A DNA stretch of 36,227 nt from an uncultured Bacteroidales bacterium (lineage in GTDB: Bacteria > Bacteroidota > Bacteroidia > Bacteroidales > UBA932). The stretch is taken from positions 1 to 36,227 of the forward strand of contig ONRD01000026.1 in assembly GCA_900320185.1 (NCBI GenBank), written 5' to 3'. Below, piece after piece: positions 5,906 to 20,934 of this stretch (positions are counted from its first letter, which is position 1; each line of letters opens with the position of its first letter). The notes below the pieces were generated by a model. It had not been told where the DNA came from. It worked only from the letters and a program-made list of their open reading frames with translations, and did no database searches. The translations under genes and the position numbers were made by a program.

Positions 5906-7006
5906 CTACCTGAACAGGCTCAGGAGCATCGAGCAGGCCCGGGCGTCGTGCATGGGATACATCCGGAAGGCCGGGCTTTCCTGCGTGTCCTCCAAATGGT
6001 CCTTGATGAAATCCCAGATCCGAAGGGCATAGTCAGCCCCGTCGGGACAGTTCTGGTACTTCCACGCGCATAGGTTGGCGATCATGGCCTCAGCCTGCAC
6101 CCACGGCTCCATCCTCTGCTCCACCGCTCCGTCAGCATCCTTGGCATAGACCACGTAGCCGTCGCCGCAAAGACCGTCCATTCCGGCCTTGTAGAGCTTG
6201 AGGCAGGTGTCCTTGACGAGGTTGATCTCGTCGATGTCGGCAACCGCATAGGCAGCGTCGAGGATGACCCAGGATGCCTCCAGGTCGAGACCGTACAGGC
6301 AGCCGCCCTGCATAGGTGCCCAGCCGGCCGATGCCGACAGTTCCAGATGACCGGTCGCAGGATTGAAGAACTTCGAGACGACCAGCTCGAGGAGGGCCGA
6401 GAGGACTTCGCGCAAAGTTTCGTCCTTCCAGACCCTGTACATGTTGGCGTAGGCTTCCAGGAGATAGATGTGGGAGAAGGCGACCTTGTTGTCGTTCTTG
6501 ACTTCGAAGTCCCTCCTGAGGGTCTCGAAGTAACCGCCGTTCACGGGGTCCTTGAACTCCTTCTCGACAATCTTGAAGAGGTTGACGGCCTGCTTGAGGG
6601 ATTCGTCGTCCTTGATCGCACCGTAGAACTCGCTGAGGGCGTAGATCGCCAGGGCCTGGTTCGACAGGTGGGCGTCCGTGTCCAGCTTCTCCCCCCAGGA
6701 GTCCACCGAGGTGAAGGCTCCTCCGTACTTGTGGTCCAGGAAATGCTGGATGAAGTAGTCCTTGGCGTTCATGGCAGGCATCAGGTACTCCCTCTTGCGG
6801 AAGCGCCTGTAGGCGTTTGAATATGCCCAGAGGATCCTGGCGTTGAGCTGCTCCTCCCTGACAGCCTCCTTGTCGGCGGTCAGGTCAGGGGCGATCGATC
6901 CGTAGAAGCCGCCCCTGGGGTCCTGCATGCCTGCCCAGAATTTGAGTATGTCCCACTCGAGGACTTCCCTGGCTTCCCTGACCAGGATGTCGGTCCTTCC
7001 GTTCAT
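5906..7006 (-). CDS. AGE-family (N-acylglucosamine / cellobiose 2-epimerase-like) protein lacking one catalytic His
   Basis: 366 residues, an (alpha/alpha)6 barrel of the AGE superfamily, whose members epimerise or isomerise sugars at C2. Family landmarks: Arg57 in LNARILWAY, SHIYLLEAYANMYRVWKD (~178-194), LDLEASW (240-246), WVQAEA (302-307) and a terminal YPMHDARA with His353. The landmark spacing matches cellobiose 2-epimerases, where the third of these is G-H-D-I-E and the His is one of two acid/base residues; here that position is Leu240. The other His (353) and the Glu/Trp pair are kept. The activity may therefore be changed or lost. It is 3 bases downstream of the DUF1080 gene (stop at 7010), clearly in the same operon, so a role on the same (possibly oxidised) disaccharide is inferred. 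No signal peptide, so cytoplasmic. Confidence 0.85.
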   Translation of the reverse strand: MNGRTDILVREAREVLEWDILKFWAGMQDPRGGFYGSIAPDLTADKEAVREEQLNARILWAYSNAYRRFRKREYLMPAMNAKDYFIQHFLDHKYGGAFTSVDSWGEKLDTDAHLSNQALAIYALSEFYGAIKDDESLKQAVNLFKIVEKEFKDPVNGGYFETLRRDFEVKNDNKVAFSHIYLLEAYANMYRVWKDETLREVLSALLELVVSKFFNPATGHLELSASAGWAPMQGGCLYGLDLEASWVILDAAYAVADIDEINLVKDTCLKLYKAGMDGLCGDGYVVYAKDADGAVEQRMEPWVQAEAMIANLCAWKYQNCPDGADYALRIWDFIKDHLEDTQESPAFRMYPMHDARACSMLLSLFR

Positions 7007-7009
7007 GGC

Positions 7010-8296
7010 CTAGAGGGTCTTGATGTGGATGTTTCTCCAGCGGACCTTGATGCCGCCTCCGTCGTGTATCTGCAGGCAGATCCTGCCGTGGCCGCTGCCG
7101 ATCTTGGCATCGTGGATGTCAGTCATGGGCTCTCCGTTGAGCCAGGACTGAAGATGGTCGCCTTCCAGGCGGATGCGCATGGTGTTCCACTCGCCGTATT
7201 TCAGGATGGACTCCTTCTCGTCGGGAATCTGGTACAGCCAGCCGCGGCCGTAGGATTCATAGACGCCGCCGGTGTCGCATCCCGGAGGCGCGACCTCGAC
7301 CTGCCAGCCGCTGACGGTGACATCGTGGGGAACGACCGAACGGATGAACACGCCGGAGTTGCCGGAGGATTCCTGCTTGAACTCGAGGGTGAGGTCGAAG
7401 TCGTCGTAGTATTCGGTAGTGCCGAAGTAGCCGTAGGTGTTGTCGGTACCGCTCTCGCATACCAGGCATCCCTCCTCGTCGACGTACCACGGGTCAGTCC
7501 CGTAGACGATCCATCCTTCGGTGTCCTTGCCGTTGAACAGGTCCTTCTCGACGGGTTCGGGCTTGGGCAGTTCCTTGATCTTGATGTTCCTGAACCAGGC
7601 AGGGTAACCATGGTCCTGGAGGCATATGTGGCCTGTCCTGGACATTCCATATTCAGAGCACTCGGCCCACTTGCCGGCGGCTTTGCGGGCGAACCAGTCC
7701 TCGGACCATGCGTCGAACTCGACGGTCACCTTCCCGTTGAGGAGGTAGGTCACGTGGCCGTTGTCGAATATGATCTCGGAGCTGTTCCACTCCCCTGCCG
7801 GCTTGAGGTTCCTGGTCTCGAAGTCAGGGACGTACATGGCGTAGTCGACGCCGCAGCGCTGCCACGGTTCGAGGACATAGCCGTCGTTCATCTCGGTGAA
7901 GTTCTCGTCGTCGATGAGCTGGTATTCGGGCCCGGTGATGTAAGGCACGTCGAATCCGGGGCGCTCGACCACATGGTAGAGCATTCCGGAGTTGCCGCCC
8001 TTGCTGATCTTCCACTCCCACTTGAGGTCGAAGTTGGTGTATTCCTTGTCGGTCACGATGTAGCCGTTGGAGTCACTGCCCTTGCCGGTCGCCTCGATGA
8101 CTCCGTCCACCACGGTCCAGGGGCCGGAGAGTCCCTCGCCGTTGTAGTCGCGCCATCCTTCCAGGTCCTGGCCGTTGAAAAGCAGCTGCCACCCATCCTT
8201 GATCTCCTTATTCGTCAGTTTGTTGGGGGCGTTGCAGCCTCCGAGCATCAGCGAGGCAAGGACCGCCACGCCGAGCATTTTGAGAGTTTTGTTCAT
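7010..8296 (-). CDS. tandem DUF1080 (3-keto-disaccharide hydrolase/lyase-type) lipoprotein
   Basis: 428 residues. MNKTLKMLGVAVLASLMLGGC gives a lipoprotein signal (Cys ~21). Two DUF1080 jelly-roll domains follow: ~35-245 (GWQLLFNGQDLEGW, GNSGMLYHV, GPEYQLIDD) and ~250-428 (KDLFNGKDTEGW, GNSGVFIRS, GWQVEVAPPG, ending RWRNIHIKTL). DUF1080 proteins are linked to cleavage of 3-keto-glycosides, often beside Gfo/Idh/MocA oxidoreductases and TIM-barrel isomerases; proteins of both types lie in the operon at 16965-19265. It is the first gene of an operon with the AGE-family protein, and divergent from the aminopeptidase gene. Domain assignment is secure; the exact reaction is inferred. Confidence 0.9.
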   Translation of the reverse strand: MNKTLKMLGVAVLASLMLGGCNAPNKLTNKEIKDGWQLLFNGQDLEGWRDYNGEGLSGPWTVVDGVIEATGKGSDSNGYIVTDKEYTNFDLKWEWKISKGGNSGMLYHVVERPGFDVPYITGPEYQLIDDENFTEMNDGYVLEPWQRCGVDYAMYVPDFETRNLKPAGEWNSSEIIFDNGHVTYLLNGKVTVEFDAWSEDWFARKAAGKWAECSEYGMSRTGHICLQDHGYPAWFRNIKIKELPKPEPVEKDLFNGKDTEGWIVYGTDPWYVDEEGCLVCESGTDNTYGYFGTTEYYDDFDLTLEFKQESSGNSGVFIRSVVPHDVTVSGWQVEVAPPGCDTGGVYESYGRGWLYQIPDEKESILKYGEWNTMRIRLEGDHLQSWLNGEPMTDIHDAKIGSGHGRICLQIHDGGGIKVRWRNIHIKTL

Positions 8297-12302: not shown

Positions 12303-15170
12303 TCAGCGGACTTTCGCGGTGGTGCACTTGTCCACCAGATAGGCTATTGACATATACGGGACCCCCGAAGCGGCCGACAGCCCGATCTCGCAGGTCCGGG
12401 AGTTCGAGTACCCGACCGGGACCCTTCCCCTGACCTGGCCCCTGAGATTCCTGAGGGCATATGCATTCAGTTCCGGTGTGGTCATCCCTTTGTCGCCGGC
12501 AAAGCCGCAGCAGCCCACTCCTTCCGGCACCAGGACGTCCGAAGAGCACAGGCCGGCAAGTTCGAGCATAGCCCTGTCGAGTTTCATCAGGCGCATCGAA
12601 CAAGTGAGATGGACCGCAACAGGGATGTCGCTGCGGTGGAACTCCAGCCTGTCGCGGAGGAAGGTCAGGATGAACTCGGCCGGCTCGTAGAGTTGCAGGG
12701 AGCGCATCTTCTTCCTCATCCGGTGCAGGCAGGGGCTCTGGTCGCAGAGGACAGGATATTCCCCGCCGCGGGAAGCCTCCAGGAGGGCGGCTTCGAGTTC
12801 GGCGGCCTTCCTGTCCGCCTCTTCTTCCATCCCCTTGCTCTCCCAGATGGTGCCGCAGCAAAGGCTGTCCATGCCCTGTGGGAATATCACCTCGCATCCT
12901 GCCTTCTCCAGCAGGGAGACCATCTCCTCCACGAGGGGCTTGTCCACCGGGGAGCCGTGCCTGGGCAGTCCCATCATCTGGTTGATGCACGAAGGGAAGT
13001 ACACCACCTTCAGTATGCCGCCCACGTCCCGCGCCGCCGCGGCCGGGGATGCCGGGATGGACCTGGGGACCTTGTAGGCGCGCGGAGTGGAGGAGGTCCA
13101 CAATGGCAGCCCCACACCTTTGTGAAGGATCCTGCAGAGGCCCTCCATGGCGGCGTCCCCCATGACGGCCTCGCCGAAGGAGGCAAGCCGGAGGGCTCCC
13201 CTCAGGGCGGACTTCACCTGCGGGAAATGCCTGGAAGCGAAGGTCAGGCCGCCGAAGGCAATGGTTCCTGGGCGGTTCTTCTCCGCCCTTACTGCGTGGG
13301 TCAGGTCGGCGACGTTGATTCCCATGGGGCAGGACATCGAGCACAGGCCGTCCCCGGCGCAGGTCTCCTCCCCAAGGTAGGAATATTCCTTGCGGAGGGT
13401 CTTGAGAGTGCGGATCTCTTCGGTGGAAGGCTCCTTCAGGGCTTCCAGCCTGGCTATCTCCCTTCGCGCCGCTATCCTGGTGCGAGGCGAGAGGGTGAAG
13501 CCGCACGAGACGCAGTTGACCTCGCAGAAACCGCATTCGATGCATTTGTCCAGGCCCGCACCGTAGGGAAGGAGAGGCAGGGCCTTGAAGTCCCTGAGAT
13601 GGCACGCAGGGTCGTCGTTGAATATCACCCCGGGATTGAGGATCCCTTCCGGGTCGAAGGCGGCCTTGACTTCCTTCATGATCCCGAAAGCCTTGTGCCC
13701 CCATTCATATTCAACATAGGGAGCCATGTTCCTGCCCGTCCCGTGCTCCGCCTTGAGGGAGCCGTCGTAGCGGCCGACCACCATCCGCGCCACGTCGTCG
13801 ATCATGGCTCCGTAGCGGGCCACCTCCTCCGGGGAGTCGAAGGACTGGTTGATGATGAAATGGAAGTTGCCCTCCAGGGCATGGCCGTAGATGCAGGAGT
13901 CGTCGTAGCCGTGCCTGTCCAGAAGGGCGGACAGGTCCTCGACAGCATCGGGCAGGTCCTCGATGTGGAATGCCACGTCCTCGATCAGGCAGGTGGTCCC
14001 CTGCCTTCTCAGCCCGCCCACGGAAGGGAATATTCCCGAACGGAGGGCCCAGAAGCGGGAGCTCTCCGACGGGTCGGTGGTGAAACGGACTTCCCCGAGG
14101 GTGTCGCAGCCTCCAAGCACAGCCTCTATCCGGGATATGTTTTCCTTCAGGGCCGCCTCCGAGAACGCCGCCGTGCGGGTGAGGACGGCCGTCACGTCGG
14201 TACCTGGATTCTCCCCGAGCACGGGGTCTCCTACCGACTGGAGCGACCTGCGGTCGAGCAGTTCAGCGGCACTGACCACCTCCAGGCCAAGGGCCGCCTT
14301 CATCGCCACCACCGCCTCGGAAGCCTTCCTGATCGAAGGGAAATAGACCATGGCATCCGCCTTGTACGGCTCCTCGGGAAGGGTCCTCATGGTGACGCTG
14401 CCCATGAAGGCGAGCGTGCCTTCAGACCCGGCGAGCAGGTGGGCGACGATCTCGAAAGGGTCGGAGAACCTGACGAACGGCAGCAGGTTCAGGCCTGTCA
14501 CATTCTTGATGGAATACTTGTACTTTATCCTTTCCACAAGAGACTCGTCCTCGAGTATCCGCGCACGGATCCGCAGGACGGCGTCCAGGATGTCCGGACG
14601 GGTCTTGCGGAAGCTCTCCCGGGAAGTTTCATCCTCGGTGTCCAGGACGGTCCCGTCGGCGAAGACCATCCGCGCCCCAACCATCAGCATGTCCGAGTTG
14701 GCATGGGTGCCGCAGCTCATCCCGGAGGCATTGTTCATCACGATCCCTCCGACCATGCAGCTTCCGATGGACGCCGGGTCTGGGCCGAACCTGCGGCCGT
14801 AGGGCTTGAGCAACTCCCCCACCATTGCCCCGACGATGCCTGGCCCGAGGGTTACCGTGTCCGCGTCCGGACCCGGGCTGAAGGCTTCCCAACCCTTTCC
14901 GGCAACAACCAGCACCGAGTCGCTCACGCTCTGGCCGGAGAGGCTGGTGCCAGCCGCCCTGAAAGTCACGGGAACCTTGAGCCGGGATGCCAGTCCAAGG
15001 ATGCGGGAGACTTCCCGTTCGTCCCGGGCAAGGATGACTATCTGCGGGGTGAGGCGGTAGAAACCTGCATCGGTCCCCCAGGCAAACCGCCTGAGAGGAT
15101 CGGTCAGCAGCCTGTCGCGGGGGATGAAGGAGCCTGCCTCCTTGAGGAAAATGGCGTGACGCTGGTCCAT
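12303..15170 (-). CDS. FAD-linked oxidase / 4Fe-4S / CCG-domain dehydrogenase (D-lactate or D-2-hydroxyacid dehydrogenase type)
   Basis: 955 residues, the single-chain GlcD-GlpC type (YdiJ/Dld-II-like). The N-terminal PCMH FAD-binding domain (~35-215) contains FRAAGTSLSGQSVSD and GSCMVGGIVMNNASGMSCGT. A FAD-oxidase C-terminal domain (~225-520) follows, then two 4Fe-4S motifs (CIECGFCEVNC ~545 and CAGDGLCSMSCP ~610). Finally come two cysteine-rich CCG motifs (VVYFPSC...DSLCCGTIW and VHLTCSM...GVGCCGFAG). Such enzymes oxidise D-2-hydroxyacids and pass electrons through FAD and Fe-S to quinone at the inner membrane face. Substrate not determinable. It is monocistronic, with a well-formed promoter and a direct repeat just upstream, suggesting regulation. 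Confidence 0.92.
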   Translation of the reverse strand: MDQRHAIFLKEAGSFIPRDRLLTDPLRRFAWGTDAGFYRLTPQIVILARDEREVSRILGLASRLKVPVTFRAAGTSLSGQSVSDSVLVVAGKGWEAFSPGPDADTVTLGPGIVGAMVGELLKPYGRRFGPDPASIGSCMVGGIVMNNASGMSCGTHANSDMLMVGARMVFADGTVLDTEDETSRESFRKTRPDILDAVLRIRARILEDESLVERIKYKYSIKNVTGLNLLPFVRFSDPFEIVAHLLAGSEGTLAFMGSVTMRTLPEEPYKADAMVYFPSIRKASEAVVAMKAALGLEVVSAAELLDRRSLQSVGDPVLGENPGTDVTAVLTRTAAFSEAALKENISRIEAVLGGCDTLGEVRFTTDPSESSRFWALRSGIFPSVGGLRRQGTTCLIEDVAFHIEDLPDAVEDLSALLDRHGYDDSCIYGHALEGNFHFIINQSFDSPEEVARYGAMIDDVARMVVGRYDGSLKAEHGTGRNMAPYVEYEWGHKAFGIMKEVKAAFDPEGILNPGVIFNDDPACHLRDFKALPLLPYGAGLDKCIECGFCEVNCVSCGFTLSPRTRIAARREIARLEALKEPSTEEIRTLKTLRKEYSYLGEETCAGDGLCSMSCPMGINVADLTHAVRAEKNRPGTIAFGGLTFASRHFPQVKSALRGALRLASFGEAVMGDAAMEGLCRILHKGVGLPLWTSSTPRAYKVPRSIPASPAAAARDVGGILKVVYFPSCINQMMGLPRHGSPVDKPLVEEMVSLLEKAGCEVIFPQGMDSLCCGTIWESKGMEEEADRKAAELEAALLEASRGGEYPVLCDQSPCLHRMRKKMRSLQLYEPAEFILTFLRDRLEFHRSDIPVAVHLTCSMRLMKLDRAMLELAGLCSSDVLVPEGVGCCGFAGDKGMTTPELNAYALRNLRGQVRGRVPVGYSNSRTCEIGLSAASGVPYMSIAYLVDKCTTAKVR

Positions 15171-15379: not shown

Positions 15380-16915
15380 ATGGGAGAGAAGAAGAACAGG
15401 AAAGCGGTTTGGCTGGCCGGACTGGGAGGTCTGGTTCTCGGCGCATGCCTCCTCGTCCTGCTGGGCAGCGAGATGAGCAGGACATCCACCAACGAGTACT
15501 GCATGAGCTGCCACTTCCACGAAGGCGCCGACGCCTCCTGGAAGAAGTCCCAGCACTACATGAACTCCAGCGGGACGGTCTCCGACTGCGCCGCCTGCCA
15601 CCTTCCTCCGAAGGAGGACGGCTACTTCAAGCATTACATGGCAAAGGCCAGGATGGGCGCCAGGGACATCTGGTCCAAGATGACCAAGGACAAGGACGAG
15701 ATCGACTGGGAGGCCAAGAAGGAACTCGGCTACGCCTCCACGATCGTCTACAACTCCTCCTGCGAGAAATGCCACCACAACCTTCTTCCGGAAGGGATTT
15801 CCGACGATGGCATCACGGCCCACCTCTACTACAAGGACAACGCAGAGAAACTGGACCTCCAGTGCATCTCGTGCCACCTCAACGCCGGGCATGAGATCCC
15901 CGGCTACCAGCACAAGAAGCTGGACAACGGGCAGAAGATAGACACCGGCACCGGAGAGATCTACGACTCCCCGGCCGACATCACCGCCTTCGAGAGCTTC
16001 ACCGAAACAGTCCCCGGGACCAACGCCAGCATCCGCATGGTCGCCGTCCCCGGAGGTGAGTTCACGCTCGGGAGTCCCGAGGACGAACCTTTCAGGAATC
16101 CCGACGAGGGACCGGCCAGGAGGGTAAGGATAAGCCGGTTCTTCATGGCCGAGACCGAAGTGACCTGGAACCAGTTCTGGGCTTTCTACAACGAGACCAT
16201 GTCGGAAGGGAGGACTCCCCCGGCGGTGATCTACGCCAACAACACCCGGGAGGACATCGACGCCGTGAGCGGCCCGACCCCTCCTTTCGGATTCCCGGAC
16301 CAGGGCTGGGGAATGGGAGAGCGGCCGGCCATCACCATGTCGCACTACTGCGCCCAGACCTTCTGCCAGTGGCTCACCTTGAAGACCGGACACACCTACA
16401 GGCTGCCTACCGAGGCGGAGTGGGAATATGCGGCCAGGGGCGGCACCGACACTCCGTACTTCTTCGAGGGCAGCCCGAAGAAGTACTCCAACAAGGGCTT
16501 CCTCCGCAAGTTCAGCAAGGCCGACACCTCCATGATCTCCCGCTACGTGGTGTTCGAGGGAGACAGCAGGAGCAAGACCCAGGAGGCCTCCTCCGTAAAG
16601 CCCAACCCGTTCGGCCTCAAGAACATGCTGGGCAACGTGATGGAATACTGCTCCGACTGGTACGCTGAGGATGCATATTCCCGCATCCAGGACGGCGCCC
16701 TCGACCCTGCAGGTCCGGCCTCCGGGACAGAACACGTGGTCCGCGGCGGAAGCTATGCCGACGACGCCTCCGCCGTGCGCTGCGCTTCCAGGGGACGCAC
16801 CTTCAACGACGACTGGCTGAAGACCGACCCCCAGAACCCCAAGAGCATCTGGTGGTACTCCGACATCAAGGGAATAGGCTTCCGCGTGGTCTGCGAAGTG
16901 CCCGAGGGAATATGA
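15380..16915 (+). CDS. NapC/NrfH-like tetraheme cytochrome c fused to an FGE/SUMF1-like domain
   Basis: 511 residues. One N-terminal TM anchor (~9-29) is followed by a NapC/NrfH-like domain with four CxxCH heme sites: CMSCH (41-45), CAACH (70-74), CEKCH (128-132) and CISCH (162-166). KARMGARDIWSKM between hemes 2 and 3 is typical NrfH. From ~215 to 511 there is a formylglycine-generating-enzyme-like fold (RMVAVPGGEFTLGSP, FFMAETEVTWNQFW, YRLPTEAEWEYAARGG, NPFGLKNMLGNVMEYCSDWY, HVVRGGSYADDASAVRC, GIGFRVV). The two copper-binding cysteines expected after RGGS in true FGE are absent (RGGSYADDASAV), so FGE catalysis is unlikely and a binding or scaffold role is inferred. NrfH-type proteins pass electrons between menaquinol and periplasmic partners. 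First gene of a five-gene operon. Confidence 0.9.
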   Translation: MGEKKNRKAVWLAGLGGLVLGACLLVLLGSEMSRTSTNEYCMSCHFHEGADASWKKSQHYMNSSGTVSDCAACHLPPKEDGYFKHYMAKARMGARDIWSKMTKDKDEIDWEAKKELGYASTIVYNSSCEKCHHNLLPEGISDDGITAHLYYKDNAEKLDLQCISCHLNAGHEIPGYQHKKLDNGQKIDTGTGEIYDSPADITAFESFTETVPGTNASIRMVAVPGGEFTLGSPEDEPFRNPDEGPARRVRISRFFMAETEVTWNQFWAFYNETMSEGRTPPAVIYANNTREDIDAVSGPTPPFGFPDQGWGMGERPAITMSHYCAQTFCQWLTLKTGHTYRLPTEAEWEYAARGGTDTPYFFEGSPKKYSNKGFLRKFSKADTSMISRYVVFEGDSRSKTQEASSVKPNPFGLKNMLGNVMEYCSDWYAEDAYSRIQDGALDPAGPASGTEHVVRGGSYADDASAVRCASRGRTFNDDWLKTDPQNPKSIWWYSDIKGIGFRVVCEVPEGI

Positions 16916-16964
16916 CAAGACAAGGAATCGACATAAAACAATAATCAAACAAATCCAAGAAGCT

Positions 16965-18317
16965 ATGAGCGAAAAAATGAACAGAAGAGACTTCCTCGGC
17001 GCAAGCGCCAAGGCTGGAGTCGTCGGTCTTGTAGGCGGCAGCGTACTGCTTTCAGCCTGCAGCGAGAAAAAGGACAAGCAGACGCCTCTGAGGCAGCCCG
17101 GTGAGTATTATGTTCCGGAGCTTCCCGACAAGGCTATCGACGGAGAAGAACTCAAGGTCGGTGTAATCGGCTGCGGCGGAAGAGGTTCCGGCGCCGTGAT
17201 GAACCTTCTGAACGCTGCTGACGGAATCACCGTCACCGCCCTCGGCGACACTTTCGCCGACCGCCTAGGCAACCTCAAGGGAAGCCTCGCCGAAAAAGGC
17301 CAGGTCGTTCCCGACGAGAACTGCTTCATAGGGTTCGACGCCTACCAGAAAGTGATCGACTCCGGAGTCGACATGGTCATCGTCGCCACCCCTCCCGTGT
17401 TCCGTCCCGTCCACTTCAAGTATGCCACCGAGAAGGGAGTCCACTCCTTCCTCGAGAAACCTATCGCCGTCGATCCCAAGGGCTACCGTACCATCATGGC
17501 CACGGCCGAGGTGGCAAGGCAGAAGGGCCTGAGCGTGGTCTGCGGAACGCAGCGCCACCACCAGCGTCCCTATGTGGCTGCATTCCAGAAGATCCAGGAA
17601 GGCTTGATCGGCGAGATCACCGGAGGCAACGTCTACTGGAACCAGGGAATGCTCTGGTACAGGACCCGCGAGAAGGGCTGGAGCGACATGGAATGGACCA
17701 TCCGCGACTGGGTCAACTGGAAGTGGCTGTCCGGCGACCACATCGTCGAGCAGCACGTCCACAACATCGACGTCTTCAACTGGATGTTCGGATACAAGCA
17801 TCCGCTCAGGGCAACCGCTTTCGGAAGCCGCCAGCGCAGGATCACCGGTGACCAGTACGACAACTTCAGCGTCGACTTCGAGTACGAGAACGGCGTCCAC
17901 CTCCACAGCATGTGCCGCCAGATAGACGGCTGCTCCAACAACGTCAGCGAGGAGGTCCGCGGAACCAAGGGCTACTGGAAGTCCGCCGACAATGCCATCT
18001 ACGACCTCCAGGGCAACAAGATCTGGGAATTCGACTTCGAAGCTTCCAAGGCTGAGTTCCAGCAGGACGATCCCTACGTCCTCGAGCATGTCGACTGGGT
18101 CAACCACATCCGCAAGGGCGAGGCTCACATCGAGGCCGACGAGTGCGGAATGTCTTCCCTGTGCGGCGTGATGGGACGCGAGGCCGCCTACTCCGGCCAG
18201 ACCATCGAATGGGACGCCATCGCAGCTTCCGAGCTTGACTACATGCCCGAGAAGCTCGAGCTCGGACCCCTCGACATGGCCAAGTTCACCGTTCCCGTCC
18301 CCGGATCCGGCAAATAA
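16965..18317 (+). CDS. Tat-exported Gfo/Idh/MocA oxidoreductase lipoprotein
   Basis: 450 residues. MNRRDFLGASAKAG is a twin-arginine signal, followed by a lipobox ending LSAC, so the folded protein with bound NAD(P) would be exported and lipid-anchored. The Rossmann domain has VGVIGCGGRGSGAV (~65) and the family EKP motif in FLEKPIAVDP (~165). The catalytic-domain signature GDHIVEQHVHNIDVFNWMFG (~260) carries the conserved His/Asp residues. Relatives oxidise sugars or sugar derivatives, commonly at C3 in 3-keto-glycoside pathways. In this operon, between a tetraheme cytochrome and cytochrome c maturation genes, reoxidation of the cofactor through the cytochrome is a plausible but unproven inference. 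49 bases after the cytochrome gene. Confidence 0.9.
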   Translation: MSEKMNRRDFLGASAKAGVVGLVGGSVLLSACSEKKDKQTPLRQPGEYYVPELPDKAIDGEELKVGVIGCGGRGSGAVMNLLNAADGITVTALGDTFADRLGNLKGSLAEKGQVVPDENCFIGFDAYQKVIDSGVDMVIVATPPVFRPVHFKYATEKGVHSFLEKPIAVDPKGYRTIMATAEVARQKGLSVVCGTQRHHQRPYVAAFQKIQEGLIGEITGGNVYWNQGMLWYRTREKGWSDMEWTIRDWVNWKWLSGDHIVEQHVHNIDVFNWMFGYKHPLRATAFGSRQRRITGDQYDNFSVDFEYENGVHLHSMCRQIDGCSNNVSEEVRGTKGYWKSADNAIYDLQGNKIWEFDFEASKAEFQQDDPYVLEHVDWVNHIRKGEAHIEADECGMSSLCGVMGREAAYSGQTIEWDAIAASELDYMPEKLELGPLDMAKFTVPVPGSGK

Positions 18318-18353
18318 TCCAGTCCACGGAACTGCAAGCAAAAGGAATCTCAG

Positions 18354-19265
18354 ATGGACAGAAGATCATTCCTGAAGACATCGGCAGTTGGTTCGGCGGC
18401 AATCGCCGCCGGAACCATCCTGCCTGCCTCCTGCTCATCCGGCAAGGGAGGAGTGAAAGACAAATCCAAGGTCAAGCTGAACCTCTCCTTCCAGGAAGGG
18501 ATCGCGCCCGGCAATTCCCTGGCCGAGAAACTTGACTTCATGGAGCAACTCGGCATCGCAGGCTTCGAACCCGGCGGCCGCGGCCTCGCTGCACGCATCC
18601 CGGAGATACGTGAGGCCCTCAGCGGCAGGAACATCAAGGTTTCTGCAATATGCGCCGGCTTCGATGGTTTCATCCTCGCCGACGACCCTGCCGTCAAGCA
18701 GCAGTTCGACACCACCATGCGGGAGATCGTGGCTGCGGCAGGCGAACTCGGTTCCACCGGTGTTATCATGGTCCCTGCATTCAACGGTCAGGAACCATGC
18801 AAGCCCCACAACCAGCAGACCCGTGACTACCTGTGCGAAGAGCTCCACAAACTCGGTGAGTTCGCCAAGGAACATGGCACTACAGTGATCCTCGAACCGC
18901 TCAACCGCAGGGAGTGCTTCTACATGAGGCTTGTGGCAGACGCTGCCGCGATAGCCCGTGATGCAGACTCTGAAGGAGTCAAGGCCATGGGAGACTTCTG
19001 GCACATGCAGGAGGAGACCTCCGACTACGGTGCCTTCATGTCTGCCGGCATCAAGTACCTCCAGCACGTCCACATCGCCAGCCGCGGCCGCAGGATCATG
19101 CCCGGTGAAGACGGAGAGAAGGACAACTACGTGGAGGGATTCAGGGCCCTCAAGGAACTTGGCTACGACAAGTACGTGAGTTTCGAGTGCGGCTGTGAAG
19201 GCGACCGTGAGACTGCCGTCAAGAACGCCGTCAAGCTGCTCCGGGAGCAGTGGGCCCAGGCCTGA
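18354..19265 (+). CDS. Tat-exported TIM-barrel (hydroxypyruvate isomerase / sugar epimerase-like) lipoprotein
   Basis: 303 residues. The start MDRRSFLKTSAVGSAAIAAG is a Tat signal, ending in a lipobox-like LPASC. The rest is an AP-endonuclease-2 / xylose isomerase-like TIM barrel. Metal-ligand candidates are at the usual strand ends: Glu in VILEPLNRRE, Asp and His in MGDFWHMQEE, His in LQHVHIASR, Glu in VSFECGC. Family members isomerise or epimerise keto sugars, or act as lyases/hydratases on 3-keto sugars when next to Gfo/Idh/MocA genes. Tat export is unusual for this fold and matches the preceding exported oxidoreductase. The stop overlaps the ResB-like start (TGATG), indicating translational coupling. 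Confidence 0.88.
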   Translation: MDRRSFLKTSAVGSAAIAAGTILPASCSSGKGGVKDKSKVKLNLSFQEGIAPGNSLAEKLDFMEQLGIAGFEPGGRGLAARIPEIREALSGRNIKVSAICAGFDGFILADDPAVKQQFDTTMREIVAAAGELGSTGVIMVPAFNGQEPCKPHNQQTRDYLCEELHKLGEFAKEHGTTVILEPLNRRECFYMRLVADAAAIARDADSEGVKAMGDFWHMQEETSDYGAFMSAGIKYLQHVHIASRGRRIMPGEDGEKDNYVEGFRALKELGYDKYVSFECGCEGDRETAVKNAVKLLREQWAQA

Positions 19266-20161
19266 TGTCTTTCCTGCACCATCCGTGGGGGCTGGTTGCA
19301 GCCCTCGTCTATACCTATCTCCTGGTCGTCACCCATTTCCTTGGATCCAGACGGCCAGGACTTAGGGTTTTATGGAGCGCCAAGGCTTCCATTGCCGCCG
19401 CATTGCCGCTCCTTGTCCTGATGGTCATCTTCGGACTGTTTCCCCAGAGCGGGATGAACGGCAAATGGTACTTCATCCTGGTGCTGCTCCTGTTCACGTC
19501 AGTGCTGGGACTCGCCGCCGTCGACGGCATCGCAAGGATGGCCGAAAGCGGCTTCTCCTGGCGCCTTGCCGGGAAGACCCTGTCGCACCTCGCCATGTTC
19601 CTCGTGCTCGCAGGCGGCCTTTTCGGAAGCGGAGACACCCGCCACGTCGTGGTCTCGGCGACCGAGGGAACAACAGTCTCCACCGGCATCGACGAGGACA
19701 GCGGGGAGATGGTGCCGATGCCCTTCGAACTGACCCTGGACAAATTCACTTTCGAACGGAAGGGCAACAGGCCATATTTCCTTTCAGAAGTGACTTTCAC
19801 CGAAAAGGGCAAGGCTCCCTGGAAGGAGGATATCCTGGTAAACCATCCTGCGAAGGTCGGTTCGTGGATCCTCTACCAGTACGACTACGGCAAGTCGGAA
19901 GACGGGCGCAACACAAGCATCTTCGAGTGCGTTTCCGACCCGTGGGCCGGCTTCTTCAGGGTCGCATTGTGGCTGATGATGGTCTCCGCCGCGGCCATGA
20001 TAGTCCTTGCCGTGTCCTGGAAGCCGGGAAAACGCAAGCCCGCGCCGGCGGAAGGCAGCGCTGAGGGAACAGCCGCCGATGCGGGCGCTGAAGGAACAAT
20101 ACCCGAAGCGGAAGTGTCGGAACCGGCTTCGCCGTCAAAAGAGAAGGAGGGCAGAGCATGA
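19265..20161 (+). CDS. ResB-like cytochrome c maturation protein (system II, short form)
   Basis: 298 residues from ATG 19265, chosen because it overlaps the previous stop (TGATG). There are four TM helices (about 7-28, 40-58, 66-85, 100-118), an extracytoplasmic domain (~125-225; PYFLSEVTF, NHPAKVGSWILYQYDYG) and a fifth TM (~235-255). The C-terminal cytoplasmic tail (~258-298) is low-complexity, made of AEG/EGT/PEA-type repeats. ResB/CcsB works with CcsA to ligate heme to CxxCH apoproteins outside the membrane; the tetraheme protein two genes upstream is the obvious client. In Bacteroidota this short ResB followed by ccsA usually closes nrfHA operons. Confidence 0.8.
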   Translation: MSFLHHPWGLVAALVYTYLLVVTHFLGSRRPGLRVLWSAKASIAAALPLLVLMVIFGLFPQSGMNGKWYFILVLLLFTSVLGLAAVDGIARMAESGFSWRLAGKTLSHLAMFLVLAGGLFGSGDTRHVVVSATEGTTVSTGIDEDSGEMVPMPFELTLDKFTFERKGNRPYFLSEVTFTEKGKAPWKEDILVNHPAKVGSWILYQYDYGKSEDGRNTSIFECVSDPWAGFFRVALWLMMVSAAAMIVLAVSWKPGKRKPAPAEGSAEGTAADAGAEGTIPEAEVSEPASPSKEKEGRA

Positions 20162-20934
20162 GTTGGAACGTATTCACCTGGTTCGCCGTGGCAGCCATGG
20201 TATTATGGGCGGCAGGTTCGGCCGCCTCTTTAAACGGGAACTCCCGCAGGCTGTCCGCCTTCCTGTACGGCGGCGGCGTGCTGGTTCTTCTCGCCTTCAT
20301 CGCAGGGTACTGGATCACGGTGCAGCGGCCGCCAATGCGCACCATGGGCGAAACCAGGCTTTGGTTCAGCCTGTTCCTGTCCCTGACCGGCGGAGCAATG
20401 TTCCTGAGGCTGCGCAACAAGTGGATAATGCCGCTCTGCGCCGTGCTTGCGGGAATATTCATGTGCATCAACATATTCAAACCGGAGATCCACAACAAGG
20501 TCCTGATGCCGGCGCTCCAGAGCGCCTGGTTCGTACCGCACGTCATCTCCTACATGCTTGCATATGCCACCCTTGGCGCAGCAACGGTAGCGGGAATCCT
20601 TCTCCTCGTGAAGCCTTCCCGCACCGACATCCGTAGCGGGATGGAAGACTGCGACACTCTCGTACGGATCGGATGGGGCTTCCTGACCCTCGGTATCGTG
20701 ATGGGAGCATTGTGGGCAAAAGTGGCCTGGGGTGATTTCTGGACATGGGACCCGAAGGAGACATGGGCGGCCGTCACATGGCTGGGCTACATGGTCTATC
20801 TGCACCATCGCAGGACCGGAGCTTCGCCGCGGGTCTCACTCGCCATCCTGATGATCTCCTTCGTCCTGCTCCTGATGTGCTGGTTCGGCGTCAACTATCT
20901 CCCCTCCGCCCAGGGCGGCATGCACACATATTGA
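20158..20934 (+). CDS. ccsA: cytochrome c biogenesis protein CcsA (heme handling protein)
   Basis: 258 residues, start overlapping the ResB-like stop by 4 bases (ATGA). Multi-TM protein with the heme-binding WWD-type signature AWGDFWTWDPKETWA (~187-201) and conserved His residues in external loops (e.g. WFVPHVISYM). With ResB it forms the system II cytochrome c synthase. Last gene of the operon. Confidence 0.93.
   Translation: MSWNVFTWFAVAAMVLWAAGSAASLNGNSRRLSAFLYGGGVLVLLAFIAGYWITVQRPPMRTMGETRLWFSLFLSLTGGAMFLRLRNKWIMPLCAVLAGIFMCINIFKPEIHNKVLMPALQSAWFVPHVISYMLAYATLGAATVAGILLLVKPSRTDIRSGMEDCDTLVRIGWGFLTLGIVMGALWAKVAWGDFWTWDPKETWAAVTWLGYMVYLHHRRTGASPRVSLAILMISFVLLLMCWFGVNYLPSAQGGMHTY

Follow-up and report, generated by a model that had tools for sequence, protein, structure and literature searches.

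Many Bacteroidota, Planctomycetota and Verrucomicrobiota have exported oxidoreductases of the Gfo/Idh/MocA family, and we know of no answer to the question of how these enzymes shed their electrons outside the cytoplasm, where nicotinamide adenine dinucleotide (NAD) is not free. The question is raised by a five-gene operon of an uncultured Bacteroidales bacterium of the UBA932 lineage (assembly GCA_900320185.1; 2.28 Mb in 49 contigs, 92.8% complete). The operon (genes A to E) lies on the + strand at positions 15380-20934 of contig ONRD01000026.1 (C34 in our set), whose whole stretch of 36,227 nucleotides is the window analysed here. It encodes a multiheme cytochrome, two sugar enzymes and two proteins of cytochrome maturation. 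A preliminary description, made from the sequence alone, had regarded it as an nrf-like operon with NrfA replaced by sugar enzymes. On our analysis, electrons from the probable oxidation of sugars outside the cell membrane may reach the respiratory chain by a route that would be new.

A gene module of cytochrome and sugar enzymes

A check of the open reading frames (ORFs) confirmed five co-directional genes and the overlaps between the last of them: genes C and D share TGATG, and genes D and E share ATGA. Gene A (15380-16915, +) encodes a 511-amino-acid fusion of a NapC/NrfH-type tetraheme domain (residues 1-185; 15380-15934) with a domain of the formylglycine-generating enzyme (FGE)-sulfatase, or SUMF1, fold (residues 219-472; 16034-16795). 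The tetraheme half had been recognized before, whereas the FGE half had been missed. In the Pfam search, residues 6-174 matched Cytochrom_NNT (PF03264; E 1.9e-24, 86.8 bits against a cut-off of 24.1). CXXCH motifs start at residues 41, 70, 128 and 162, and the AlphaFold model (mean pLDDT 75.9) shows a helix, residues 4-35, as the N-terminal membrane anchor. With the anchor, the four CXXCH motifs and PF03264 above its cut-off, gene A bears the marks of the NapC/NirT superfamily. The second half matched FGE-sulfatase (PF03781; E 3e-41, 142 bits) and, by Foldseek, the structures of FGE (E about 1e-14) and PvdO.

Gene B (16965-18317, +) encodes a Gfo/Idh/MocA oxidoreductase (GFO_IDH_MocA, E 2.8e-10; AlphaFold mean pLDDT 90.1). 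Its signal, NRRDFL...LLSAC, combines twin arginines with a lipobox-like end, and R7 and R8 are invariant in 49 of 49 aligned rows. The glycine-rich loop of the Rossmann fold reads GVIGCGGRG. E164-K165-P166 is likewise invariant (49/49), as is D95, an acidic residue that presumably suits NAD over NADP. Its solved relatives by sequence include a glucuronide-3-dehydrogenase (8tdi, E 6e-8).

Gene C (18354-19265, +) encodes a xylose-isomerase-like TIM barrel (AP_endonuc_2, E 4.9e-32) with a TAT_signal match. R3 of the signal is invariant, and the pair it belongs to is RR in 8, RK in 6 and RQ in 1 of 15 copies. Both sugar enzymes had been credited with a twin-arginine signal and a lipobox. This holds for gene B; in gene C the twin arginines are present, and the lipobox of the window copy, LPASC, is off what we take to be the consensus, with LTGC or LTSC in orthologues such as L045 and L047. 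E181, D214, H240 and E278, which we read as the metal site of the family, are kept in 15 of 15 copies. For gene C, the solved relatives were 3kws, a putative sugar isomerase (E 9e-147), and 6wn6, a 3-keto-D-glucoside 4-epimerase (E 2e-34). Because the solved relatives of the two proteins include 3-keto-sugar enzymes, oxidation of a sugar or glycoside at C3 by B and processing of the product by C are to be expected.

We compared 149 genomes of the family, locating the genes in the comparison loci by homology (tblastn). Gene A was found in 29 genomes (27 full length; partial in G026 and G036), gene B in 31 (E 1e-80) and gene C in 30 (E 1e-60). All 29 genomes with A have B, and 28 of them have C; in G115, C is truncated at a contig end behind B (L152). 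Only two genomes, G104 and G146, have B and C but no A, and the assemblies of both are fragmented. The co-presence of A and B over the 149 genomes gave a Fisher p of about 7e-29, which is indicative only, the genomes being related. In genus g20 the association is kept with A on contigs other than those of B and C, and these contigs are too short to give the true distance. The genomes of this genus (G038, G081, G093 and G115; L031, L036-L040, L058 and L059) also carry two diverged copies of A each, and B-like paralogues of about 45%.

The same arrangement was seen in the full-length loci L063-L076, which come from Parabacteroides, Tannerella, Dysgonomonadaceae, Sunxiuqinia, Maribellus and other Bacteroidia. 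A B-like gene adjoins A in all 14 (13 downstream, one upstream), and a C match of at least 57% is present in 6. Clearly, genes A, B and C form a well-supported gene module. The proposal that cytochrome and sugar enzymes belong together was thus borne out by their co-inheritance, and the search for the gene order in relatives showed that A-B-C recurs in genomes that mostly lack NrfA (3 of 27 have it).

The two halves of gene A and their relatives

The four CXXCH motifs are kept in 45 of 47 copies of gene A (31/33 and 14/14), the exceptions, L041 and L042, being cut at contig ends. Alignment to the NrfH structure 2j7a placed K89 of gene A at K82, D96 at D89 and H47 at M49, and none of these three residues varies among the 36 copies aligned. 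We take K82 and D89 of NrfH to be residues of the quinone pocket. A quinone-linked electron path is plausible for gene A. In the genome as a whole, the CXXCH DNA pattern gave 167 hits among the matches listed, against 103 in a reversed-pattern control.

Against the NrfH equivalog TIGR03153, gene A scored 56.3 bits, far below the cut-off of 134.2. NrfA (PF02335) had no match in the genome of the window. Among the 27 family genomes with full-length A, NrfA was found in three, always on a contig other than that of A, and one of these matches is a fragment at a contig end. Counted over the family, 3 of the 29 genomes that have A carry NrfA, as do 20 of the 120 that lack A, and there is no association (p 0.57). 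Based on the genome of the window, the operon genomes and the 149-genome counts, an NrfA gene just outside the conserved block was ruled out.

The FGE half was followed through more distant genomes. A contig search with FGE peptides yielded 561 confirmed matches, and of the best 80, 66 are matches to the FGE part in which the NapC part is missing. They come from Planctomycetota, Verrucomicrobiota, Acidobacteriota, Flavobacteriia, Sphingobacteriia, Rhodothermota and Balneolota, among others. In 38 of these 66 loci, the FGE gene has a B-like Gfo gene no more than 1.3 kb away (37 matches downstream, 3 upstream, none on the opposite strand), whereas the farther flanks gave 2 B-like matches in 531 kb.

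In a tree of 105 FGE domains, the 45 NapC-fused copies form one clade (100/100) spread over Bacteroidia. This clade is nested in a group of 94 rows (99/96), the remaining 49 of which have no NapC part. The group shares a C-terminal signature, in gene A W479...D-P-Q-x-P-K-S-x-W-W492 (16814-16855). D483, P484, P487, S489 and W491 are present in all 45 fused and all 49 other rows, and of the 11 outgroup FGEs 10 or 11 have a gap at these positions. The split between clade and outgroup was made by hand from the tree and the loop motif described below; L126 and L127, which both carry the motif, were counted in the clade, L126 also by the tree.

The nearest FGE kin are without NapC hemes and many of them are paired with a Gfo gene. 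Accordingly, the module has the look of an FGE-Gfo pair to which hemes were added, and not that of an nrf operon from which NrfA was lost. The label of an nrf-like operon with NrfA replaced is not supported by this result. A degenerate nitrite-reductase operon would account for NapC/NrfH, ResB and CcsA, which are common to nrf operons. It is hardly credible beside a monophyletic FGE-fused clade that is spread over Bacteroidia, a gene A below the NrfH cut-off and the missing association with NrfA.

FGE-Gfo pairs without NapC hemes occur in many phyla, which speaks for a different explanation, a redox-neutral module like the levoglucosan and YcjS/YcjR schemes. Here a single bound NAD would serve B both to oxidise a sugar and later to reduce it again, C would epimerise or eliminate in between, the FGE domain would act as a lectin-like scaffold and the hemes would have a separate role. 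The closeness of C to the 3-keto-D-glucoside 4-epimerase 6wn6 agrees with it, as does PorK, in which the FGE fold serves as a structural part according to fold matches and the title of PMC12421860. Also in line are the available statements on the levoglucosan pathway (PMC7676230), which combine C3 dehydrogenation, isomerase-type proteins and a Gfo-family reductase and name no cytochrome. The four heme sites kept in the 45 uncut copies and the co-inheritance of genes that are not adjacent are hard to explain in this way, and we regard such a redox-neutral cycle as unlikely.

The FGE domain itself is unlikely to be a formylglycine enzyme, because the first cysteine of the copper site is missing in the rows inspected. 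The site reads RGGSYADDASAVRCASR, with no Cys at the first position; we take C336 and C341 to be the active-site cysteines of human FGE. We rejected a working formylglycine enzyme on account of the missing copper-site cysteines, and for the same reason we discarded copper/O2 chemistry of the domain as an electron sink in aerobes.

Hemes of a second type, PSCyt1 (Planctomycete cytochrome c), are fused to the same FGE clade in four Verrucomicrobia loci (L084:7512-8915, L085:7365-9065, L086:7035-8915 and L108:7230-8954). In Maribacter algarum, a PSCyt1-PSCyt2-PSD1 gene (L091:9558-11900), the domains of which are listed in Pfam as of unknown function, lies just downstream of an FGE gene that has no B-like Gfo within 1.3 kb. 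A protein with eight CXXCH motifs and with TPR and HEAT repeats (L103:12220-14460) is encoded 3.4 kb from an FGE gene with Gfo and ApbE neighbours.

A candidate flavin and the proposed electron path

By clustering the neighbours of 63 loci (L063-L125), we found ApbE as a third partner; all 10 of the ApbE neighbours tested matched PF02424. Of 52 clade loci without NapC hemes, 20 encode ApbE within 4.4 kb of the FGE gene, whereas none of the 14 outgroup loci does (Fisher p 0.006). In 19 of the 20 it lies within 1.5 kb, and in L111 at 4.3 kb. FGE, Gfo and ApbE genes are consecutive on one strand in L093, L107, L112 and L139, followed by a TIM gene in L093 and L112. ApbE tracks FGE rather than Gfo, because in L080, L108 and L121 FGE and ApbE occur together although the 1.3 kb around FGE holds no B-like gene, whereas nine loci with B-like paralogues (L153-L161) have no ApbE. 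In the genome of the window ApbE is encoded elsewhere, and it is present in 26 of the 27 operon genomes.

ApbE is a flavin adenine dinucleotide (FAD):protein flavin mononucleotide (FMN) transferase that modifies motifs like [S/T]GA[S/T], according to the accessible text of PMC11334425. In gene A, the segment IDAVSGPTPPFG contains the loop D294-A-V-S-G-P-T300 (16259-16279), in which T300 is the predicted FMN acceptor. All 45 fused and all 49 other clade rows have a loop of the form D-x-x-x-x-[PA]-[TS], which none of the 11 outgroup FGEs in the alignment shows; in the fused copies it reads D[AG][VI][ST]G[PA]T. Among 1380 six-frame ORFs of at least 100 amino acids (spurious ones included) within 6 kb in the 63 loci, D[AG]x[ST]G[AP][ST] occurred in 21, all of them FGE ORFs. 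The motif is absent from B (0/49) and C (0/15). The same genome supplied positive controls: two NqrB/RnfD-family proteins with VDAVSGATPLGF (DAVSGATPL) and ADAITGATPLSY (DAITGATPL), and an FMN_bind protein with IDAITGATMTS.

We therefore propose a path from sugar to NAD in the Gfo protein, to a covalent FMN on the FGE loop, to hemes and to menaquinone. Gene B, a Tat-exported lipoprotein, would oxidise a sugar hydroxyl, most likely at C3, with its retained NAD; gene C, a metal-type TIM barrel, would remove or rearrange the keto-sugar. Gene A would re-oxidise the NADH: an ApbE-attached FMN at T300 of the flexible loop would accept the hydride and split it into single electrons, which would pass through the four hemes of A to menaquinone at the NrfH-like site. 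ResB (gene D) and CcsA (gene E) would mature gene A. We infer the substrate, the covalent FMN, the direction and every electron-transfer step; the substrate is probably a glycoside. That the operon is such a respiratory-chain-linked sugar dehydrogenase module of the cell envelope, with FMN on the FGE loop between NAD and hemes, is in our judgement a real possibility, at slightly less than an even chance.

The preliminary description implied that the cofactor exchanges electrons directly with the cytochrome. Such a scheme has no two-to-one-electron converter, and the evidence points to an ApbE-attached FMN instead; an FMN on the loop would solve the two-to-one-electron problem of a direct NADH-to-heme step. 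Passage of electrons straight from B to the hemes of A, with the FGE domain only docking B, would agree with the fusion in gene A and with its co-inheritance with B. We know of no precedent for direct hydride transfer to heme c, and the loop motif and ApbE would be left out of account, which makes this arrangement very unlikely. The redox-neutral cycle, too, leaves the ApbE linkage and the loop motif unexplained.

The potentials of NADH (about -320 mV) and menaquinone (about -74 mV) favour the direction from sugar to menaquinone. The reverse direction would have A draw electrons from menaquinol for an external reduction. The terminal reductase, for example of a keto-sugar, would then be either B or a flavinylated FGE domain, in the manner of flavinylated fumarate and urocanate reductases. 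In favour of this direction, NapC/NrfH proteins are normally quinol dehydrogenases. Against it, menaquinol at about -74 mV could not easily reduce NAD at -320 mV if the NAD of B were involved. Moreover, ApbE-linked members without NapC hemes occur in groups that, by organism names, we take to be mainly aerobic and that have no obvious need for such an acceptor. Flavinylated extracytosolic reductases do exist, as noted in the available text of PMC8238504; a reversed flow is nevertheless distinctly unlikely.

Several observations weigh against the proposed path from sugar through a loop-bound FMN to menaquinone. ApbE stands beside none of the 45 heme-fused FGE copies. The exact GA form of the motif is found in only 3 of 45 fused copies (L071, L072 and L076) and 4 of 49 other clade copies, including Flavobacteriaceae with DAVSGAT; the window has SGPT, with P in place of the canonical A. 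To our knowledge, no FGE-fold protein with a flavin has been described. Since pLDDT is under 50 for loop residues 297-309, the AlphaFold model does not give the placement of the loop relative to B or the hemes. The hemes are dispensable to the wider FGE family, because by the criteria set no ORF with CXXCH accompanies the FGE gene in 50 of the 66 NapC-less loci. None of the four PSCyt1-FGE fusions has a B-like gene in the 1.3 kb around it, and L108 is the only one with an adjoining ApbE. The B family can do without A, because the nine loci L153-L161 hold B-like paralogues (43-49%) without A or ApbE, and a redox-neutral cycle could get by with just B and C. Finally, TatC had no match in the assembly, which is 92.8% complete; this is probably an assembly gap, because 23 of the 27 operon genomes have TatC.

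In a wider form, the proposal is a new class of covalent flavoproteins in several phyla: FGE-fold proteins with ApbE-attached FMN that are the dedicated acceptors of exported Gfo/Idh/MocA sugar dehydrogenases, their flavin loop entering the Gfo pocket in a ping-pong manner, and that in Bacteroidia, probably the anaerobic ones, are fused to a tetraheme quinone reductase. The fusion would complete a chain from sugar through NADH, FMN and hemes to menaquinone outside the inner membrane. We put this forward tentatively, as possible and still short of probable. If true, it would define a new class of flavinylated protein, give a function to FGE proteins without the cysteines of sulfatase maturases, and mean that relatives of Parabacteroides and similar bacteria couple the oxidation of sugars or glycosides directly to respiration. 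The module would then offer a concrete answer to how exported Gfo enzymes dispose of electrons, through a flavin carried by an FGE fold and, in some cases, through hemes as well.

Neighbouring genes and comparison with known systems

Gene D (19265-20161, +, from ATG; alternative GTG at 19250) encodes a short ResB-like protein (PF05140, E 3.3e-16) and gene E (20158-20934, +) a CcsA/CcsB-type heme lyase (Cytochrom_C_asm, PF01578, E 1.2e-31). The ResB-like and CcsA-like pair of CcsBA (System II) maturation is thus present; in L060 and L053 the two are fused as ResB-CcsA. Gene E is the sole PF01578 match in its assembly. Of the 29 genomes that have A, 26 encode CcsA, but so do 57 of the 120 that lack A, so that its dedication to gene A is only partly supported.

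Upstream of the operon, at 5906-8296 of the - strand, an AGE-type epimerase is paired with a 3-keto-disaccharide hydrolase (PF06439; 7010-8296, -), which is possibly linked to the module; the order is kept in G129 (L043). DUF1080 stands beside the operon in the window and in L043. Divergent to the operon, a 955-amino-acid FAD and Fe-S protein resembling GlcD and D-2-hydroxyglutarate dehydrogenase is encoded at 12303-15170 (-). In genus g15, a GH78 alpha-L-rhamnosidase gene lies directly upstream of A in seven loci (L050-L056), a hint at rhamnosides as the source of the substrate. Naming the sugar from neighbours such as GH78 and DUF1080 was dropped, the neighbours not being consistent enough.

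In titles and abstract openings of the open-access papers searched, we found no tie of FGE/SUMF1 to Gfo/Idh/MocA, NapC/NrfH or ApbE.

Among known systems, NrfH (2j7a, 2vr0) is likewise a membrane-anchored tetraheme protein, and its quinone-site K and D are kept in gene A. Gene A differs in its fused FGE domain, in CXXCHxH instead of CXXCHxM at heme 1 and in having no NrfA partner. With formylglycine-generating enzyme and PvdO (PF03781), the domain of gene A has the fold in common, whereas the copper-site cysteines of RGGSxxC...C are absent and its clade has a loop and a C-terminal signature of its own.

On the side of the sugar enzymes, glucose-fructose oxidoreductase of Zymomonas (1h6d, 1rye) is an exported Gfo enzyme to which gene B has a fold match. 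It holds its cofactor tightly and uses a second substrate in a ping-pong manner; the cofactor is regenerated by fructose, not by an electron-carrier protein. Periplasmic oxidation of sugars at C3 is tied to a c-type cytochrome in the FAD glucoside 3-dehydrogenases of the Agrobacterium/Halomonas type. These are cytochrome-linked flavoenzymes of the glucose-methanol-choline (GMC) family, whereas the module has a Gfo enzyme and a separate predicted flavin. E. coli has a pathway for 3-keto sugars, YcjS/YcjR (6wn6), which likewise joins a 3-dehydrogenase with an isomerase-type enzyme and is not known to have a heme or FGE partner. Similarly, the levoglucosan proteins LgdA/B1/B2/C combine a sugar 3-dehydrogenase and a sugar-isomerase-type enzyme acting on 3-keto sugars; in the available text of PMC7676230 they have no heme or FGE partner and export is not mentioned.

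The predicted flavin finds its parallel in the ApbE-flavinylated carriers (FMN-bind, NqrB/RnfD, DUF2271, DUF3570, Flavodoxin_4 and FMN_red). As far as the accessible parts of PMC8238504 and PMC11334425 go, the classes listed do not include the FGE fold, and MocA, formylglycine and PF03781 are not mentioned in the former; most FGE copies also have P for A in the motif. Like the FGE proteins proposed here, these carriers are extracytosolic and, as in the kin of the module without NapC hemes, have an ApbE gene as neighbour; their motif of the DAxSGAT type is nearly that of the FGE loop. According to the same part of that 2021 eLife survey (PMC8238504), flavin and cytochrome domains substitute for each other in related systems.

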